Part shown: positions 12,336 to 41,316 of the stretch, piece after piece
Numbering within the stretch: position 1 is the first letter of the stretch
How the letters are laid out: each line of letters starts with the position of its first letter
DNA from: an uncultured Alphaproteobacteria bacterium
GTDB taxonomy: Bacteria > Pseudomonadota > Alphaproteobacteria > Methylaequorales > Methylaequoraceae
NCBI GenBank assembly: GCA_902563305.1
Contig: CACEWP010000002.1
Coordinates: forward strand, 1 to 64,000
Length of the DNA: 64,000 nucleotides
Direction: 5' to 3'
Translations under genes and position numbers: made by a program
Notes under the pieces: model-generated
The model's input: the letters and a program-made list of their open reading frames with translations, nothing else
Told to the model about the DNA's origin: nothing
The model's database searches: none

Positions 12336-12821
12336 ATGAAAAAAAAATACTTGTCTTTATTTTTCGCAGGGATCTTAATGATCTCGGGTTGCGAAACTAT
12401 AGGTGGTTCTTCCGGAGCAGGAAGCACACCAGGATATGAATACGGTGACTCAAAGCAAGCTAATTTGCAAGCTTATCTTCAAAATGAGATAGGTGATAGA
12501 GTTTATTTTGAGACCGACAAACACAATATTTCCTCTGCCTCGGCATATGTTCTTGAGTCTCAGGCTAATTGGCTTAAATCAACTCCAGGTTTTCAATTGT
12601 TAATTGAAGGTCACTGCGATGAAAGAGGCACAAGAGAATATAACCTAGCACTTGGTGAAAGAAGAGGAAACTCTGTTAAAGAATTTTTAACCTCTCTTGG
12701 TGTTGATGCTGGAAGATTGACTGTGATCAGTTATGGAAAAGAACGCCCTGCTGCAGAAGGCAGCACATCTGAAGCATGGGCTGAAAACAGGAGAGCAGTT
12801 CTAGTCGTAAGTGGTAACTAG
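12336..12821 (+). CDS. pal: Peptidoglycan-associated lipoprotein Pal
   Basis: Pal anchors the outer membrane to peptidoglycan and is moved by Tol during division. The 161-residue protein has a lipoprotein signal ending in LMISGC, a short linker, and an OmpA-like domain with VYFETDKHNIS, LLIEGHCDERGTREYNLALGERR and NRRAVLVV (meso-DAP binding). AAGGA precedes the ATG. Codons appear less AT-biased than in neighbours, consistent with high expression. An intrinsic terminator follows. Confidence 0.97.
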   Translation: MKKKYLSLFFAGILMISGCETIGGSSGAGSTPGYEYGDSKQANLQAYLQNEIGDRVYFETDKHNISSASAYVLESQANWLKSTPGFQLLIEGHCDERGTREYNLALGERRGNSVKEFLTSLGVDAGRLTVISYGKERPAAEGSTSEAWAENRRAVLVVSGN

Positions 12822-12849: not shown

Positions 12850-12877
12850 AGGGCTATACTTTTAGCCCTTTTTTTTT
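12850..12877 (+). terminator. Intrinsic terminator after pal, running into the cpoB start codon
   Basis: GGGCTA (12851-12856) pairs with TAGCCC (12863-12868) across a 6-base loop, with one more A-T pair, followed by nine Ts. The next bases are the ATG of cpoB at 12878. This is a canonical Rho-independent terminator. Its position means cpoB is either expressed by read-through or starts from RNA made past the U-tract; no Shine-Dalgarno sequence remains for cpoB. Confidence 0.85.
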
Positions 12878-30201: not shown

Positions 30202-31014
30202 GTGAAGAAATTAACTTGTGAACAGCTATCGGAGAAAGTATTTAAAAAAAAGATTTTTAGAGGTGAAGTTTTTGTAATCAAAAATTCAAAAGAGATTGCT
30301 AAAATTACTCAAATCATTCAAATGTATTTCCTTTATATTTTTAATGTAAATATAAAAAATAGTGGAAAAAAGCAATTATTATTAAAAGATCAGAACAACT
30401 TGTTTTTTACAATTTTACAGAACAGAGTTAAGAGATGTAAATCGATAAGAAAATACTTTACTAAATTTTTAGAAAATATAGGTTTCAATGTTCAAGAAAC
30501 TTATATGGATCTCATAACATTAAGATTCAGTCCCAGTAACGGAGAAGATTCTCTTGGTACTTTAAATCCTGTAAAAGCACACAGAGACACTTGGGCCTCA
30601 AACTTGTTTCACCAAATAAACTTTTGGTTTCCGATTCATAAAGTTACAGACAAAAACTCTATTTTTCTTATCCCAAAATATTTTAATAAAAAAATAAGTA
30701 ATAATAGTGGTATTTGGAATTATGCTTTTTATAAGCAAAAAAAAAACTATCCTTCAACTCCAATCACTAACGAAAATTTTTATAAAAACGAAATCCTAAG
30801 ATTTTCATTAATTAAAGGAGAAGTGTTATGTTTTTCAGGTCATCATTTACATGGAAGTAACTTAGGAAATTGTGAAAGATTTAATCTGGAGACAAGGGTT
30901 GTATGTAAAAATGACAATAAAAAATATAAGATTCCTAAGAATTTAGATTCAGAAAATAAAATTGAGAAAAAGAAATGGTTTAAAAATTTAGTTTCTGGAA
31001 AAAGTTATACTTAA
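30202..31014 (+). CDS. Putative 2-oxoglutarate/Fe(II) oxygenase (phytanoyl-CoA dioxygenase-like)
   Basis: The 270-residue soluble protein contains H-x-D in KAHRDTWASN (His127, Asp129), a distal histidine in FSGHHLHGSN (about His217) and a following Arg (ERFNLETR) that could bind 2-oxoglutarate. Together with INFWFPIHK and IFLIPKYF this is the layout of the PhyH-like double-stranded beta helix. The start is GTG at 30202; a nearby ATG is out of frame. It converges with blh, overlapping by 4 bp. A role in carotenoid or retinal modification is possible from position but not shown. Confidence 0.55.
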   Translation: MKKLTCEQLSEKVFKKKIFRGEVFVIKNSKEIAKITQIIQMYFLYIFNVNIKNSGKKQLLLKDQNNLFFTILQNRVKRCKSIRKYFTKFLENIGFNVQETYMDLITLRFSPSNGEDSLGTLNPVKAHRDTWASNLFHQINFWFPIHKVTDKNSIFLIPKYFNKKISNNSGIWNYAFYKQKKNYPSTPITNENFYKNEILRFSLIKGEVLCFSGHHLHGSNLGNCERFNLETRVVCKNDNKKYKIPKNLDSENKIEKKKWFKNLVSGKSYT

Positions 31015-31892
31015 TTATTCTTTGTAAAATTTATTAATACAATGTGTGAAATAGTAAGAGATGATAGTCCAATCACTACATAACTCAATGCTAAAGTATT
31101 AACAGAATCATAAAAGAAAAAGAAAATCAAAGTAAAAAATAGCAGAGTCAGTAATGTCATTGGGATAGTTTTTAAAATTAATTTAGATGCTTTTAATTGT
31201 AAATTATTTTTTTCTTCAATTAGATGACGGGTAGAATGAAGAAAACAGAAATATATAAAAAAAGAAAATAGTGGTTCAAAAAACCAGAAACAGAAAAATA
31301 ATAAGAATATTTCTATTGCTAAAATTCTTTGTTCTTGTGATTTAGTAATCGAATTCAGATTTTTTACGAACCACACGATTATAAGCAGGACTACAAGAAA
31401 ATAAATGTAATTAAAGTAAAGACTAACACTAGATAAAAAATTAGTTTCAACAAAAAAAAATGAAAAAATTTCAATTGATCTTTCTAAATGAAACTTAAAA
31501 GGTAGAGTTATAACTATCATTCCTCGTATAAAAATTTCCATTAAATTTTTTTTTGTTATGCTGTCACTAATTCCGAAATGTAAAGCTGACAAAAATAAAA
31601 ATAATAGAAAAACAAAATTAGGAAAATTTATCCACATAATAAAGAAAATTAATGGAATGGTTATATACGCTATCAAAAAGAATATTGTTTCTAATTTATT
31701 TTTTATAATTCTTTTATGTTTAGCGATTGAAATATCCAAACTACCATGGGCTAAACCAGGCCAAAGAAGCGGTAAAGAAAAAAGTAAGATTTGATTTAAA
31801 TAGTGCCCAGTAAGATCATTTTCGTAAAACTTAATGATTGGAATCATTATAACAATTGTATAAAAAAATAACTTTGTCTCTAGTTGCTTCAT
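31011..31892 (-). CDS. blh: Beta-carotene 15,15'-dioxygenase, Brp/Blh family
   Basis: Blh cleaves beta-carotene into two retinals, the rhodopsin chromophore. The 293-residue polytopic membrane protein carries the iron-binding histidines of the family: PGLAHGSLDI (His49), SALHFGISD (His105) and FLHSTRHLIEE near the C-terminus. It is the last gene of the rhodopsin-crtEIBY-blh run and abuts crtY with no gap. Confidence 0.93.
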   Translation of the reverse strand: MKQLETKLFFYTIVIMIPIIKFYENDLTGHYLNQILLFSLPLLWPGLAHGSLDISIAKHKRIIKNKLETIFFLIAYITIPLIFFIMWINFPNFVFLLFLFLSALHFGISDSITKKNLMEIFIRGMIVITLPFKFHLERSIEIFSFFFVETNFLSSVSLYFNYIYFLVVLLIIVWFVKNLNSITKSQEQRILAIEIFLLFFCFWFFEPLFSFFIYFCFLHSTRHLIEEKNNLQLKASKLILKTIPMTLLTLLFFTLIFFFFYDSVNTLALSYVVIGLSSLTISHIVLINFTKNN

Positions 31893-33005
31893 TTATTTCT
31901 CAAGTACTGCTTTAATAAGTAAAAACTTTGGAAGTGTTATTATAATTCTTAATATCTCAAGAAGATTAGCTGAGTTTGTTAAAAATCGAACTATTGAATA
32001 CAAATTATTGTACTTGAAAAACTTTTCAAAAAATAATTTTAAACCGCGTGGATTTTTTAAAGCAAATTTACAAAAAGTATTATCTAAAAAATCATAGACC
32101 ATTCTTTTTTTAATTTGGGGCTTTTTTCCCTCAATTATACAATCAACAAGTTGTCTCGAGAAAGTGAAAGAGTTTTGTAAAGAATAACCTGTAGACTGTT
32201 TTACCCAATTACCTGCAGTACCAATTTTAATATAATTATTAGTATTTTCTTCTTGAAACTTAAACATTGGAATAATTCCAGTCTCCAAGTTCATAATTTT
32301 ATATTTTTTACCAAAGTAGTTCTTTGATATATATTCTTCTAAATCTTTTTTGTAGTCTGGTAATGTTAGCACTTTATCGGAAAAATATGTTGTTTCAATT
32401 AAGACTTTTTTCTTACTATAAGGCAGTATATAAATAAAGTTAAAATCTTTCTTGTTATCTTGAAGATCCATAAGTATAACCTCATCTTCATTTATTGCTT
32501 CATCCTCAAAAACAATCTCCGCCCCATAGAAATGCTGAATTAGTTTTTTTGATTTATGTATGTCTTTATCTATTCTGCTATCAAATAATAAAGAGGATTT
32601 GTATTTTATTTTCTTGGTGCCTACAGTAATTGAATCATTGTCTTTTTTTAAATAATTTATATTTTGACCCATTAATAGTTTAAAATTTTGATGTTTATTT
32701 AATCTTTCTAAAAAAAATTTGAATACATCTTGAGACTTTATTCTCATATATTTAATTCTATCAGAGTAGAGTGTGGTTTTTTTTTCATTTATAATCACAC
32801 AAATTTTTTCCCATTTATTTTCGGCATATTTCGTTAAAATATTTTGGGGTATGTTCCAAAAACATAAATTTTTGTAGAGATTTATTTTTTTTCTTTTTTC
32901 TAGTATTAAAACTCTTTTGTTCGTTCTCTCTATTATTTCATAGGCAAGAATAAGGCCAGAAACACCGGCGCCTATTATAATTATATCGAAATTATTTTCA
33001 GTCAC
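31893..33005 (-). CDS. crtY: Lycopene beta-cyclase (CrtY type)
   Basis: CrtY converts lycopene to beta-carotene. The 370-residue flavoprotein has the N-terminal dinucleotide motif IIIGAGVSGLILAYEI, a middle ILPYSKKKVLIETTYFS segment and IGTAGNWVKQSTGYSLQNSF, a signature of CrtY/CrtL cyclases. It lies 4 bp after crtB. The presence of a cyclase and Blh indicates that the pathway ends in retinal rather than linear carotenoids. Confidence 0.92.
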   Translation of the reverse strand: MTENNFDIIIIGAGVSGLILAYEIIERTNKRVLILEKRKKINLYKNLCFWNIPQNILTKYAENKWEKICVIINEKKTTLYSDRIKYMRIKSQDVFKFFLERLNKHQNFKLLMGQNINYLKKDNDSITVGTKKIKYKSSLLFDSRIDKDIHKSKKLIQHFYGAEIVFEDEAINEDEVILMDLQDNKKDFNFIYILPYSKKKVLIETTYFSDKVLTLPDYKKDLEEYISKNYFGKKYKIMNLETGIIPMFKFQEENTNNYIKIGTAGNWVKQSTGYSLQNSFTFSRQLVDCIIEGKKPQIKKRMVYDFLDNTFCKFALKNPRGLKLFFEKFFKYNNLYSIVRFLTNSANLLEILRIIITLPKFLLIKAVLEK

Positions 33006-33009
33006 ACTG

Positions 33010-33912
33010 TTATGAATAAAGATTTTTAAGACTATTATTTAATTTTTTTTCTAAATCATTATTATAATATCTTCTTTTATCAAAGATTAATTTAAAAAAA
33101 ACTTTAATTGTTTTGATCACTTTTTCTAATTTTGAAAGATAGATTCTTTGGCTCCAGATATTATAGTTATTTTCTCTAATTTTTTTTCCTATAGATTGAT
33201 ATAAATATGAAGCAATTGCAATTGGAATCCTATACCTTACTGGTAATTTCATTACTCCTTCCCATGCCAAACAATAGATCTGATCAGAAATATCTAAAAG
33301 TAATTTTAAATCTTTTTTAAATTTAATTTGAAGTTCATTATCATTAAGAAGTTTACTAAAATGACAATTTACGCTATTTCTAATTTCTTCTGGAAAGTAA
33401 ATTCTTCCACTTTCCAGGTCTTCTTTTATATCTCTAGCTATATTAGTAAGTTGCATAGCTATACCTAAATAAATACCTTTATTTGTTAAAGACTCTTCTT
33501 TGACCTCCATAATCTTACACATCATTAACCCCACAGTTCCAGCAACCTTATAACTATAATTAAAAAGTTGATCATAATCTTTAATATTAACTTTATTCAA
33601 ATCACATAAAACACCATTTATTAAGTCTATTGCTATTAGTGGACTTATATTATATTTAGACATTAATCTAATAAAACTTTTAACTATTTGATCATTTGAT
33701 TTATTTTTCTTTAATTCTTTTTTAATACCCTCTAATTTAAATTTAGATTTTTTTTTGGTGAAATAATTATTATCTGCTATATCATCTACCAATCTACAAA
33801 ATAAATATAGTTTTCTTATGTCGACTTGTTTTTCTTTAGAAAAGAATAGAGAAGCAAAATAAAAAGTCTTGGCTCTTTTTTTTAATGATAGATTACTTTG
33901 CCTGTCATTCAT
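33010..33912 (-). CDS. crtB: Phytoene synthase
   Basis: CrtB joins two GGPP molecules head-to-head into phytoene. The 300-residue protein has both aspartate-rich sites, LVDDIADN and LTNIARDIKEDLESGRIYFPEE, and the helical squalene/phytoene synthase fold (AGTVGLMMCKIM). It overlaps crtI by 8 bp, indicating translational coupling. Confidence 0.95.
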   Translation of the reverse strand: MNDRQSNLSLKKRAKTFYFASLFFSKEKQVDIRKLYLFCRLVDDIADNNYFTKKKSKFKLEGIKKELKKNKSNDQIVKSFIRLMSKYNISPLIAIDLINGVLCDLNKVNIKDYDQLFNYSYKVAGTVGLMMCKIMEVKEESLTNKGIYLGIAMQLTNIARDIKEDLESGRIYFPEEIRNSVNCHFSKLLNDNELQIKFKKDLKLLLDISDQIYCLAWEGVMKLPVRYRIPIAIASYLYQSIGKKIRENNYNIWSQRIYLSKLEKVIKTIKVFFKLIFDKRRYYNNDLEKKLNNSLKNLYS

Positions 33913-35377
33913 TCTTGAGAATATTTTCTAATACCTTGGCAGAACTCATAACACCAGGAACTCCGGCACCTGGATGACATCCTGCTCCAACAAAATAAAG
34001 ATTTTTAAAGTTTTCTGATTTATTGTGGAATCTAAACCAAGCTGACTGTCTGAATATTGGAGAAATTGAAAAACCAGTCCCATACAACGAATTATAATCT
34101 TTTTTAAAATCAGATGGTGACATATGAAAACAGGTAATTAAATTCTTACGAAGTTCAGGAAGAATTGATTTTTCAAGAGCAATAAGAATTTTTTCTTGAT
34201 AAATCTTACCATAATTTTTCCAGTCGATATTATTTTTAAGATTTGGTACAGGTGATAAAACATAAAAACAATCGCAATTCTTTGGGGCCATTGCTTTGTC
34301 TGTTGCTGTTGGTCTATGAAGGTATAAACTAAAATCTTCTGCCAGGATTTGTTTATTAAAAATATCTTTTAATAAACCTTCGTATCTCTTTCCCATCCAT
34401 ATGGTATGATGAGCAATTTTTGAATACTTTTTTTTGGTACCAAAGTAGATTACAAATAGTCCCATTGAAAAATCCATCTTTTCAATCTTTTTCTTATTCC
34501 ATTTCTTGTTTAGCTTAGTATTAATTAAATATTTATATGTAAATGCAGGGTCTGTATTTAAAATAATTTTGTCTGCGGATATTTTTCTTTTTTTAACTTT
34601 GATTCCAACTGCTACATTTTTATCAAAAACAATATTTGTTACCTCTGAATTTTTAAATATTTTAATATTCTCTTCTTTCATTAATTTTTCAAACCCTTTA
34701 ATTATTTTACCTGTTCCACCCATTGCATAATGAACTCCCCATTTTCTTTCCAAAAAGTGAATAAGATTATAAATTGATGTTGTTTCAATAGGGTTTCCTC
34801 CGAGAAGTAAAGGTTGAATACTGAAAGCTTGTCTAATTTGTTCATTCTTTATAAATTTTGATACTAGCTGAAAAACGCTTAAATAACTCTTTAATGTTAT
34901 CAATGTTGGTATCTGCTTAAGCATAAAAAAGAAGTCATGAAATGGAACAAAAGATAGTTTGTTGAAGCCAATATTAAAAATTTTTTCAGAAAAGTTCAAA
35001 AGACGTCGATAACCAATAACATCTTTATTGTTAAATTTAGATATTTCTTTTTCTGTTTTTTTTAAACAACTTGAGTAATCAAAAGTTTTTTTGTTAGATG
35101 AAAAATAAAATCTGTACCATGGTTCTACTTCAACAAATTTTACATATTTTGATCTATCTTTTCCAAAAAGTTGAAATAGTTCATTAAATAGGAAAGGCGC
35201 TGTAATGACTGTTGGTCCAGCATCGAAAGTGAAACCTGACTTTTTAAAAACTCTTGCTCTTCCACCTAGCTGATCAAGTTTCTCATAAATTGAAACTTCG
35301 TATCCCATTGCTTTCAATCTTAGTGCAGCTGAAATACCACCAAAACCCGAACCTACAACGACTGCAGTTTTTTTCAT
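33905..35377 (-). CDS. crtI: Phytoene desaturase (CrtI type)
   Basis: CrtI performs the four desaturations from phytoene to lycopene. The 490-residue flavoprotein has VVGSGFGGISAALRLKAMGY, DQLGGRARVFKKSGFTFDAGPTV and the C-terminal bacterial-desaturase signature YFVGAGCHPGAGVPGVMSSAK. It overlaps crtE by 4 bp and crtB by 8 bp. Confidence 0.96.
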   Translation of the reverse strand: MKKTAVVVGSGFGGISAALRLKAMGYEVSIYEKLDQLGGRARVFKKSGFTFDAGPTVITAPFLFNELFQLFGKDRSKYVKFVEVEPWYRFYFSSNKKTFDYSSCLKKTEKEISKFNNKDVIGYRRLLNFSEKIFNIGFNKLSFVPFHDFFFMLKQIPTLITLKSYLSVFQLVSKFIKNEQIRQAFSIQPLLLGGNPIETTSIYNLIHFLERKWGVHYAMGGTGKIIKGFEKLMKEENIKIFKNSEVTNIVFDKNVAVGIKVKKRKISADKIILNTDPAFTYKYLINTKLNKKWNKKKIEKMDFSMGLFVIYFGTKKKYSKIAHHTIWMGKRYEGLLKDIFNKQILAEDFSLYLHRPTATDKAMAPKNCDCFYVLSPVPNLKNNIDWKNYGKIYQEKILIALEKSILPELRKNLITCFHMSPSDFKKDYNSLYGTGFSISPIFRQSAWFRFHNKSENFKNLYFVGAGCHPGAGVPGVMSSAKVLENILKNE

Positions 35378-36468
35378 CTATATTTTTTTATATTTTTGGT
35401 GAGTCTTGTTATTATTGAACTTATTACGAAACTGACTATTTTGGATAATCCTTCATCAGTTTTATTTGAAATATCAATGGCTTTTTGTGACACCTCATTT
35501 AAATGGCGAAATGACATATCAAGCGCACCATTTTTTTTAATTTTTTCTAACCAGAAACTGATTTCGTCTTCAGAAATTGAATCATATCTTTTTTTAAGAA
35601 ACCTTTGCAGGATGAATTTTTCTCCGTTAGTTGCATTTTCTATAAAATGCATTATCAAAATATTCATTTTTCCTTCTTTGAGATCTCTGCCTGGTAAGCC
35701 CCTATCTTTTAATCCAAGAAAATCAGATAAATCATCTTGTATCTGATAAGCGATTCCAGTTTCATATAGAGGGGAAAAATAATTATCTTCAAAATTTATT
35801 CCTGACAGTATTAGTGCTAATTTAATAGGTAAACATATTAGCCCACCAGTTTTTGCTTTTGATGTAGACTCATAATCGTGCATTTTTAAATTAAAATCTG
35901 ATCTACTTAATATTTCGACTGATTGTCCTTTAACAGTTTGTTTTATCGTATTACTTAATTCTCTGATTGCTTTGCACTTAAGACTAGAGTCTACGTCAGC
36001 ATTCGCAAGAATTTCAAATGAAGCGGAAATGAAAAAGTCTCCTAGGTTTATAGCTGTATGGTCTCCAAATCTATTCCATATTGTAGGAAGTCCTCTTCTT
36101 AAGATATCTCTGTCTTGGAGGTCATCATGTATTAATGATGCATTATGAATAAATTCACAACACATTGCTATATTAAATGAAACTTTCTTCTCCAATCCAA
36201 ATAATTTAGAAGATAAAAGAGCAAGGATAGCTCTAAACCTCTTTCCACCTGATTTTAACTGATATTTTGCACAATGCCCCATCCATGTATCATCACACAA
36301 AATTTCTGACATATTTTTATCCAACTTTTTTAGATCATTTTTGTAAAACGAGTGATCTAAAAAACTTAAATCTATATTTTTTTGAAAATCATCCAGGCTT
36401 AACCAGTTTTTATTACTGTATAAAAACTGCAGATCTTTTTCAATTTTTTGTGTTTGCAATTTTTCCAT
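35374..36468 (-). CDS. crtE: Geranylgeranyl diphosphate synthase
   Basis: CrtE extends FPP to C20 GGPP for carotenoids. It has the first aspartate-rich motif in SLIHDDLQDRD and the second in YQIQDDLSDF. The annotated start here is the ATG at 36468 (MEKLQTQK, 364 residues). The longer ORF start at 36492 would begin within the terminator hairpin that precedes the gene. No ribosome-binding site is present; TTTTTTTTGATC directly precedes the ATG. The protein is longer than IspA (292 residues, 46677). Confidence 0.92.
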   Translation of the reverse strand: MEKLQTQKIEKDLQFLYSNKNWLSLDDFQKNIDLSFLDHSFYKNDLKKLDKNMSEILCDDTWMGHCAKYQLKSGGKRFRAILALLSSKLFGLEKKVSFNIAMCCEFIHNASLIHDDLQDRDILRRGLPTIWNRFGDHTAINLGDFFISASFEILANADVDSSLKCKAIRELSNTIKQTVKGQSVEILSRSDFNLKMHDYESTSKAKTGGLICLPIKLALILSGINFEDNYFSPLYETGIAYQIQDDLSDFLGLKDRGLPGRDLKEGKMNILIMHFIENATNGEKFILQRFLKKRYDSISEDEISFWLEKIKKNGALDMSFRHLNEVSQKAIDISNKTDEGLSKIVSFVISSIITRLTKNIKKYR

Positions 36469-36472
36469 GATC

Positions 36473-36508
36473 AAAAAAAAGGGAAACATCAATTTTGATG
36501 TTTCCCTT
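36473..36508 (-). terminator. Terminator between rhodopsin and crtE, ending at the crtE start codon
   Basis: GGGAAACATCAA (36481-36492) and TTGATGTTTCCC (36495-36506) are perfect inverted repeats. On the minus-strand RNA they are followed by eight Us, then GATC and the crtE ATG. This is one of the strongest intrinsic terminators in the window. Rhodopsin transcripts should mostly end here, with read-through supplying the carotenoid genes. Confidence 0.85.
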
Positions 36509-37224: not shown

Positions 37225-37340
37225 AAGATTATCCTTTCGTATTAATTAAATCTTGAGCAACAATGCTCAAAAGTTAAAGTTTGTACAAGCAGATTAGGTG
37301 GGCATGATTATGCTATTGCCCAAAAAACCTCCCCATAAAG
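37225..37340 (-). promoter_or_regulatory. Structured leader upstream of the rhodopsin gene
   Basis: Going upstream of the ATG: the SD AAGGA; a 7-bp hairpin TTGAGCA/TGCTCAA with a 4-base loop (37253-37270); and a two-part helix formed by GGGCA/TGCCC (37300-37304 with 37317-37321) stacked below AGGT/ACCT (37296-37299 with 37327-37330). An alternative GCAT/ATGC hairpin lies inside. A TAGTAT -10-like box lies at 37349-37344, but a -35 at normal spacing is not evident. Long leaders are rare in this window. Whether this is a folded regulatory RNA is unproven. Confidence 0.4.
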
Positions 37341-39883: not shown

Positions 39884-39940
39884 AAAAAATATATATTTGA
39901 GTTGATTCTATCTTTTTATTTATTTTTTTAAACAAAAAAA

Positions 39941-39964
39941 AAAGGAGAGCATATACTCTCCTTT
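39941..39964 (-). terminator. Terminator after the porin gene
   Basis: AAAGGAGAG (39941-39949) and CTCTCCTTT (39956-39964) pair across a 6-base loop. On the minus strand a run of Ts follows (complement of the A-run at 39934-39943). It lies 30 bp past the porin stop codon. The flanking A and T tracts would let it act in both directions. Confidence 0.85.
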
Positions 39965-39993
39965 TTTATAACTATAATTAGTTAGTTAGATTT

Positions 39994-41316
39994 CTACCAG
40001 AAGAAGAACGCTCCAACTCCACCAAAGGAATCTTCTTGTTCATCGTCTGCGAGGTACCATGATTTTTCAGCATAACCACCTTCAGCTACTAATCTAAAGT
40101 TATCAGTAACGTTGTGCCAAATCATACCAGAATGCATGATATTGCCATTAGGTGTACCAGTAGTATTCATATCACTACCGGTTTTCTTCATGAAGTTACC
40201 ACCGTAAGAATAACCTACTGAAGTACCTTGACCAAAATCAAAAGTACCCTGGATGTATCCACCGTAAGTTTTTCTTTCTTTACCAACATCATCAAGTGCT
40301 CCAACAGAAGTTGATGCAGCAGCACCTGTACCGCCAGTAGCGTGTTGACCTCTCATACCCATTGCAGTTCCATAAAAACCTGTAGCAACAAGTGAGAAAC
40401 CTTCATAAGTAAGTTTTGTACCAAAACCTACACCAGCAGAGTCTACATCAGTGTCATCATCAGTGTCAAATGTTGTTCCACTTGCGGAAGAGCTGTTTTT
40501 GAAAGCCTCGCCCTGAGCCGTAGTTCTCTCTGTATTTTGATAAGAACCATCAACCCATAAATTTACGCCCAGACCAGTTTGGAAGAAGTCTCCATTCCAA
40601 GTGATTTGCGCTTCAACTCTAGGAGATGACATGTCTGTAGCAGAGAAAGCATCAGTATCTGCACGAATTTCATCTGGATCAAATATAGCAACTTTTGCAT
40701 TAAATCCAGCACCTAAATCAGGTAAAGTCCATGATACTTGCGGTTTGAAGTCAGTGTAAAGATAACCAACACCAATTCTACCGAGTGTAGTGTTTGAGTT
40801 ATTAGCTGTTGCAGCCGCACCAACACCAAATAAAAGCATATCATTAAGGATAGCGTTACTTTGGTGAATACCAAGACTACGTCCAACTAAAACAGACCCG
40901 AAGAAACCAGCTATTGAACCACTTGTTTCACGAATGTTTATTTGACCGTTCCCTAAAGAGTTTTCGTCACCGTTCATATGAGTGTATAAGCCAAGTCTTG
41001 CAGACATGTCTAATCCATTAGCCGTTGGAGCTTTTAAAGTCATACCCCATACGTTTGGTAAAAGACCAGTCACAATACTTACGTCATCATTACCTCCCAT
41101 AATACCTGCGGTAGTATCGAAAGCAACAGTTGCTCCACCAGAAGTAGTTGGTGCATCTGATACACTGTTTTTCATAACGAATGCGTTAGCCGCGCCGTCA
41201 AATGAAACTTCCCAACCTTCTTGACTCATCAACAAAATTTTTGAATCAACTGAAGTGGAAGCTAAAGCCATGACAGCTGGAATAGCAGCTACAGCAATTT
41301 TTTTAGAAATTTTCAT
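39994..41316 (-). CDS. Outer-membrane porin
   Basis: The 440-residue protein has a signal peptide (KKIAVAAIPAVMALASTSVDS). The mature region is rich in Gly, Ser, Thr, Asn and Asp and alternates short strands (ARLGLYTHMNGD, FGQGTSVGYSYGGNFMKK), ending in GGVGAFFFW with the C-terminal aromatic needed for barrel insertion. It resembles alphaproteobacterial general porins. The SD AAGGAAGGA is the strongest in the window and codons are less AT-rich than average, both suggesting abundant expression. A strong terminator follows. Confidence 0.85.
   Translation of the reverse strand: MKISKKIAVAAIPAVMALASTSVDSKILLMSQEGWEVSFDGAANAFVMKNSVSDAPTTSGGATVAFDTTAGIMGGNDDVSIVTGLLPNVWGMTLKAPTANGLDMSARLGLYTHMNGDENSLGNGQINIRETSGSIAGFFGSVLVGRSLGIHQSNAILNDMLLFGVGAAATANNSNTTLGRIGVGYLYTDFKPQVSWTLPDLGAGFNAKVAIFDPDEIRADTDAFSATDMSSPRVEAQITWNGDFFQTGLGVNLWVDGSYQNTERTTAQGEAFKNSSSASGTTFDTDDDTDVDSAGVGFGTKLTYEGFSLVATGFYGTAMGMRGQHATGGTGAAASTSVGALDDVGKERKTYGGYIQGTFDFGQGTSVGYSYGGNFMKKTGSDMNTTGTPNGNIMHSGMIWHNVTDNFRLVAEGGYAEKSWYLADDEQEDSFGGVGAFFFW

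Follow-up and report, generated by a model that had tools for sequence, protein, structure and literature searches.

Organization of the rhodopsin locus

The window, by which the whole analysed stretch of 64,000 nucleotides is meant, carries on its minus strand a proteorhodopsin gene that ends with a TAA stop codon and is followed by genes for retinal synthesis in the order crtE-crtI-crtB-crtY-blh, with a hairpin and a U-tract in between (Table 1). The families of all five downstream genes were confirmed with Pfam and NCBIfam profiles; since the window protein falls below the cut-off of the NCBIfam CrtE equivalog model, the name CrtE is based on polyprenyl synthase homology and gene context. 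The same genes are found in the same order (pR, crtEIBY, blh) in the proteorhodopsin cluster of Vibrio campbellii (PMC3380642). From crtE to blh, neighbouring genes overlap or are separated by at most 4 nt, and all five therefore probably rely on polymerases that enter at crtE. The only real gap of the cluster is the 60 nt between the rhodopsin gene and crtE, which hold the hairpin.

Table 1. Features of the rhodopsin and pal-cpoB loci in the window.
Feature	Position	Strand	Basis
pal	12336-12821	+	NCBIfam TIGR02802 Pal_lipo, above cut-off
Hairpin AGGGCTATACTTTTAGCCCT and U8 behind pal, directly followed by the cpoB/ybgF ATG	12850-12877	+	Sequence; relatives
cpoB/ybgF	ATG 12878	+	NCBIfam TIGR02795 tol_pal_ybgF, slightly below cut-off
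blh	31011-31892	-	TIGR03753, 147.6 bits, above cut-off
crtY, lycopene cyclase	31893-33005	-	Pfam Lycopene_cycl PF05834, E = 3.2e-42
crtB, phytoene synthase, overlaps crtI	33010-33912	-	Pfam SQS_PSY PF00494, E = 1.9e-51
crtI, phytoene desaturase, overlaps crtE	33905-35377	-	TIGR02734 crtI_fam, 528 bits, above cut-off
crtE-like geranylgeranyl diphosphate synthase, 364 aa	35374-36468	-	Pfam polyprenyl_synt PF00348, E = 6.5e-56
crtE start codon, 4 nt past the U-tract	36466-36468	-	Codon-wise N-terminal conservation in relatives
U-tract: U6 behind the 13-bp stem, or U8 with the two terminal A-U pairs assigned to the tail	36473-36478	-	Sequence
Terminator hairpin AAGGGAAACATCAAAATTGATGTTTCCCTT, perfect 13-bp stem, 4-nt loop, 20 nt past the rhodopsin stop	36479-36508	-	Sequence, folding, conservation in 26/26 family junctions and covariation
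Proteorhodopsin gene, 231 aa	36529-37224	-	Pfam Bac_rhodopsin PF01036, E = 1.4e-48
Rhodopsin mRNA 5'-UTR stem-loop TTTTGAGCATTGTTGCTCAAGA, upstream of the rhodopsin Shine-Dalgarno sequence	37251-37272	-	Folding

The rhodopsin is most closely related to those of HIMB59-type single-cell and metagenome genomes, one of them named HIMB59-MED-G10, and the best match shows 98% identity. From these relatives we infer that the source genome, which is compact and AT-rich, belongs to the HIMB59/AEGEAN-169 clade of tiny-genome ocean bacteria, referred to as AEGEAN-169 or SAR11 subclade V as well (PMC10308909). A rhodopsin is present in 25 of the 32 genomes of the window's GTDB family, most of the 32 being incomplete.

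Upstream, the rhodopsin gene is equipped with a strong and conserved Shine-Dalgarno (SD) sequence, ACGAAAGGAT. Of 26 family members, 25 show a hairpin in the 5' leader, the remaining one being unreadable (N) at this place; the folding energies of -3.3 to -11.7 kcal/mol stand without a null comparison, and the sequence of the hairpin differs between members. In the closest relatives this stem-loop is preceded by a conserved TAATCTGCTTGTA stretch, which may hold the -10 element of the rhodopsin promoter.

The hairpin and U-tract between rhodopsin and crtE

Read on the minus strand, the junction consists of AAGGGAAACATCAAAATTGATGTTTCCCTT, TTTTTT, GATC and ATGGAAAAATTG in direct succession, so that the gapless series of inverted repeat, U-tract, GATC and crtE ATG described in the initial annotation was confirmed both by reading and by folding. 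Counted from the GGG, the inverted repeat comprises 12 bp and is followed by U8, two of these U residues being able to pair with the AA at the stem base. Only five of the 13 stem pairs are G-C; the fold has an energy of -18.1 kcal/mol and a z-score of -6.0 relative to dinucleotide shuffles. With a stem in the range of about 7-15 bp, a short loop and a U-rich tract directly behind, the element has the build of an intrinsic terminator. The spacer before the hairpin is short and offers, on inspection by eye, no evident conserved partner strand for an antiterminator, as a regulated attenuator or riboswitch would have. A search of Rfam around the junction returned sub-threshold, chance-like matches, none of them near the gathering score.

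Strong hairpin-plus-U sites behind genes are rare in this organism: in a sample of its own genome amounting to 783 kb of stretches only a handful were found, among which the rhodopsin-crtE site is the second strongest.

Conservation and covariation in the family

For comparison, all loci collected in the family were reduced to 26 distinct rhodopsin-crtE junctions. A G/C hairpin followed by a U-tract is present in 26 of 26, the U-tract carrying in some of them an A interruption that is absorbed in the stem. Thus the terminator that had been proposed to separate rhodopsin from the five retinal genes is a family-wide feature. The stems vary in sequence yet stay complementary, as in GGGAAACATC, GGGGGAACATC, GGGAAGCAT, GGGGAAGTA, GGGGGAATAT and GGGGAAAGT among others. 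The stem covariation score is 0.241 compared with 0.149 +/- 0.015 after shuffling, and 15 cells are changed on both sides of the stem compared with 4.8 in shuffled alignments, either value being reached in none of 500 shuffles, which ignore relatedness. In the 22 aligned sequences, whose excision as hairpins favours structure somewhat, 93.7% of the cells are paired, compared with 48-62% when the arms are slid against each other, and this slid control agrees with the shuffles. The same test gave no excess over the shuffles in how many pairs had changed doubly or in how many pair types occurred. The structure is thus conserved by compensatory change, as is to be expected for an intrinsic terminator. 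Conservation of the hairpin and of its distance to crtE had been suggested as a check; the former holds throughout, with covarying stems, and the latter in part, as the U-tract lies 0-6 nt from the ATG in 17 of the 26 junctions, with an overall range of 0 to 25 nt across the family.

The crtE start codon and its surroundings

In relatives, codon-wise conservation begins at the ATG behind the U-tract (MKKNSSYKNYISNLNF, MKNSSYKNYISNLNF with a three-base indel, MIKNLSYKNYLKNLNF and MFKNQSYKSFKENLDF), which was therefore taken as the crtE start. A second ATG, at 36489 (minus strand) within the 3' arm of the stem, shares the crtE frame in three sequences, those of the window, L008 and L009; since the frame is lost in L002 and L005, this ATG was rejected as the conserved start. 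The U-tract abuts the start codon in five junctions (0 nt) and is separated from it by 1-6 nt in twelve, by 9 and 13 nt in two, and by 21-25 nt in seven junctions of one subclade. A spacing of 0-6 nt leaves no room for an ordinary promoter with a transcription start between terminator and ATG, and crtE transcripts initiated upstream must therefore read through the hairpin. Judged from this spacing, polymerases transcribing crtE should start upstream and pass through the hairpin.

A leaderless sigma-70 promoter placed directly at the crtE ATG is unlikely as well. Where terminator and ATG are closely fused (17 junctions), positions -12 to -7 fall within the U-tract or the stem's C/U-rich end, and a good match to TATAAT is present there in 0 of 17, the nearest being TATTTT in L003/L004.

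Alternatively, the terminator might be essentially complete and crtE might be transcribed from a promoter of its own that overlaps the 3' end of the rhodopsin gene or the hairpin. The seven widely spaced junctions would speak for such a promoter, as their 21-25 nt are similar in sequence and several contain TATACT/TATAGT-like stretches, and so would the last rhodopsin codons, where same-codon conservation is slightly higher than average (0.63 versus a mean of 0.53, over only 6 columns). However, synonymous-site conservation gave no strong signal of an embedded promoter in the rhodopsin 3' end, promoter-like motifs in the region are not in excess (50 versus 45.6 +/- 6.1 expected), the fused junctions lack a good in-register -10 for a leaderless start, and any promoter located before the hairpin would send its transcripts into the terminator as well. 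We regard a separate crtE promoter as quite improbable.

No SD sequence was scored before crtE in 25 of the 26 junctions, the exception being L016 with GGAG. The missing SD is real, but it does not distinguish crtE as had been implied, because most genes of this genome do without one: by a rough count with simple start calls, an SD-like motif precedes 17% of 688 genes, compared with 6% at a control position. According to the predicted folds, the hairpin covers positions -20 to -11 relative to the ATG in the fused junctions, while the values at the ATG itself vary.

A probable partial terminator within one transcription unit

Taken together, hairpin and U-tract are probably a partial intrinsic terminator inside a single rhodopsin-crtEIBY-blh transcription unit. 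Most RNA polymerases coming from the rhodopsin promoter would stop in the U-tract and release an opsin mRNA that is monocistronic and protected by a hairpin at its 3' end, and thus carries a hairpin at each end, while the fraction that reads through would yield an mRNA encoding all five retinal enzymes. On this mRNA crtE would be translated independently of an SD sequence from the ATG a few nucleotides past the U-tract, and initiation may make use of the U-rich stretch, for instance via ribosomal protein S1. Each retinal enzyme turns over many retinal molecules, and such enzymes are thus presumably needed in smaller amounts than the opsin. One promoter would then probably yield much more pump than pigment enzyme. 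From the sequence we infer efficient termination and a high opsin-to-enzyme ratio, and the strength of the terminator could lie anywhere from weak to nearly complete.

Proteorhodopsin is among the commonest light-capturing systems of the sea, and to our knowledge little is known about the balance that cells keep between opsin and retinal synthesis. A terminator that is conserved at the very start of the first retinal gene would constitute a concrete control point and predicts a fixed opsin-to-enzyme ratio from one promoter.

Intra-operon terminators that set ratios are an established kind of element; partial terminators of E. coli are located within rplJL-rpoBC and rpsU-dnaG. In B. subtilis, Rend-seq determined a partial terminator between secA and prfB (PMC8073009). 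As in these cases, the rhodopsin-crtE site is a terminator between co-directional genes, and if leaky it would work like them, lowering downstream expression. It differs in that its U-tract abuts the start codon, with 0-6 nt in most junctions and across a whole family, and in being known here from its sequence.

Hairpins behind proteorhodopsin genes outside the family

A hairpin follows almost every proteorhodopsin gene surveyed outside the family, usually 5-30 nt past the stop codon, in a sample that is uneven since these loci were chosen by similarity to the window's rhodopsin. The gene behind it is not a retinal gene in SAR11, whereas it is crtE or crtI in SAR116 and crtI or crtE in gammaproteobacteria. 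An opsin message ended or protected by a hairpin is, as far as these sequences tell, general, and in several lineages retinal genes lie directly behind it. In two SAR116 loci (L056 and L060) crtE starts about 10 nt after the U-tract and has an SD sequence, and in two gammaproteobacterial loci (L017 and L033) crtI lies close behind the hairpin; these close starts support the partial-terminator reading. Counting against it are three further gammaproteobacterial loci (L031, L070 and L077), in which a strong hairpin, TACAAGGAG...CTCCTTGTA, stands directly before crtI without a proper U-tract. This fits mRNA protection better than termination and suggests a role in RNA stability or processing.

The hairpin of the window might accordingly act by mRNA protection, too. 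In the puf operon of Rhodobacter, an intercistronic hairpin behind abundant pigment-protein genes is held to set stoichiometry (PMC11354728, citing Klug 1987). By analogy, the rhodopsin hairpin would mainly protect or end a processed opsin mRNA whose downstream part is cleaved off and decays faster, with little true termination. The puf precedent itself, the U-tract-less hairpins before crtI just described and the presence of hairpins at both the 5' and the 3' end of the rhodopsin message are in line with such a mode of action. Both systems place a hairpin behind the gene of an abundant photosystem protein. Unlike the puf element, which acts via segmental mRNA stability, the rhodopsin-crtE stem has a U-tract directly behind it in 26 of 26 HIMB59-family junctions, which a pure stabilizer would not need; furthermore, the genes downstream of the rhodopsin hairpin make the chromophore, whereas those downstream in puf encode reaction-centre subunits. 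Predominant action through mRNA stability therefore appears unlikely.

For the partial terminator preferred here, the survey qualifies the purpose that the initial annotation had assigned to it, namely a device for the ratio of opsin to enzymes. The layout fits this proposal, but the hairpin is general behind proteorhodopsin and follows it in SAR11 without any retinal gene, and therefore it need not exist for the sake of stoichiometry. Its first job would thus be to end or protect the opsin mRNA, ratio-setting following from the layout.

The pal-cpoB junction and other strong terminators

A census for terminators abutting the next start codon revealed one other clear case, located between pal and cpoB in the same window (Table 1). 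Most pal-cpoB junctions of relatives likewise show a hairpin of the GGGCTAA..TTAGCCC type, a U-tract and the ATG directly behind; the exceptions are three loci of group g9 (L141, L142 and L156), whose hairpin lacks the U-tract. Hence the fusion of terminator and start codon is not unique to rhodopsin-crtE, and the design recurs inside a presumed operon.

This recurrence could also be taken as a sign of genome streamlining alone, by which deletion would have brought the next start codon up against an ordinary terminator at a gene end, with no selected ratio. The compact, AT-rich genome with its few strong terminators and the spread of 0 to 25 nt between U-tract and crtE ATG would agree with this. 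Streamlining accounts for the small spacing but not for the retention of a terminator before a co-directional operon that has no space for a promoter, nor for a hairpin conserved in 26 of 26 junctions, and as the sole explanation it is very improbable.

Several other strong terminators follow genes that were assigned, by reading of their sequences rather than by profile matches, to outer-membrane beta-barrel-like, PQQ dehydrogenase-like, small cupredoxin-like and repeat-rich proteins, and they mostly lie tens of nucleotides from the next gene. Strong terminators thus seem to mark the ends of envelope and periplasmic messages that are assumed to be strongly expressed. Their position is as expected for the ends of such messages and supports the reading of the rhodopsin-crtE element as a partial terminator.

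More speculatively, and with considerable doubt, the U-tract might do double duty, serving polymerase release as well as, in the read-through RNA, an SD-independent landing of ribosomes. One short element would then set both transcription and translation of a downstream operon needed at low dose, and this would hold for no fewer than two unrelated operons, those of rhodopsin-crtE and pal-cpoB. The second occurrence of the design, at pal-cpoB, suggests that start-codon-fused terminators serve streamlined genomes as compact dosage devices. A literature search, with subscription papers largely outside its reach, found no description of a terminator between opsin or proteorhodopsin and retinal or crt genes; the fusion of U-tract to start codon throughout the clade, its location between the opsin gene and the chromophore genes, and the second instance at pal-cpoB look new.

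Three further sites were noted. The strongest gene-end hairpin-plus-U site of the sampled genome (L111, near 13305, minus strand) lies behind a gene encoding a repeat-rich GDMPPPGDMGPGG protein. In the window, a near-palindromic terminator at 39938-39967, with A- and T-runs on both sides and scored on both strands, is situated behind the gene of an outer-membrane-type protein (39994-41316, minus strand). Near position 16055 of L168 (minus strand), a strong terminator stands behind a PQQ dehydrogenase-like gene, and a cytochrome c-like gene comes about 90 nt further on, possibly another case of an abundant gene, a terminator and a partner gene.
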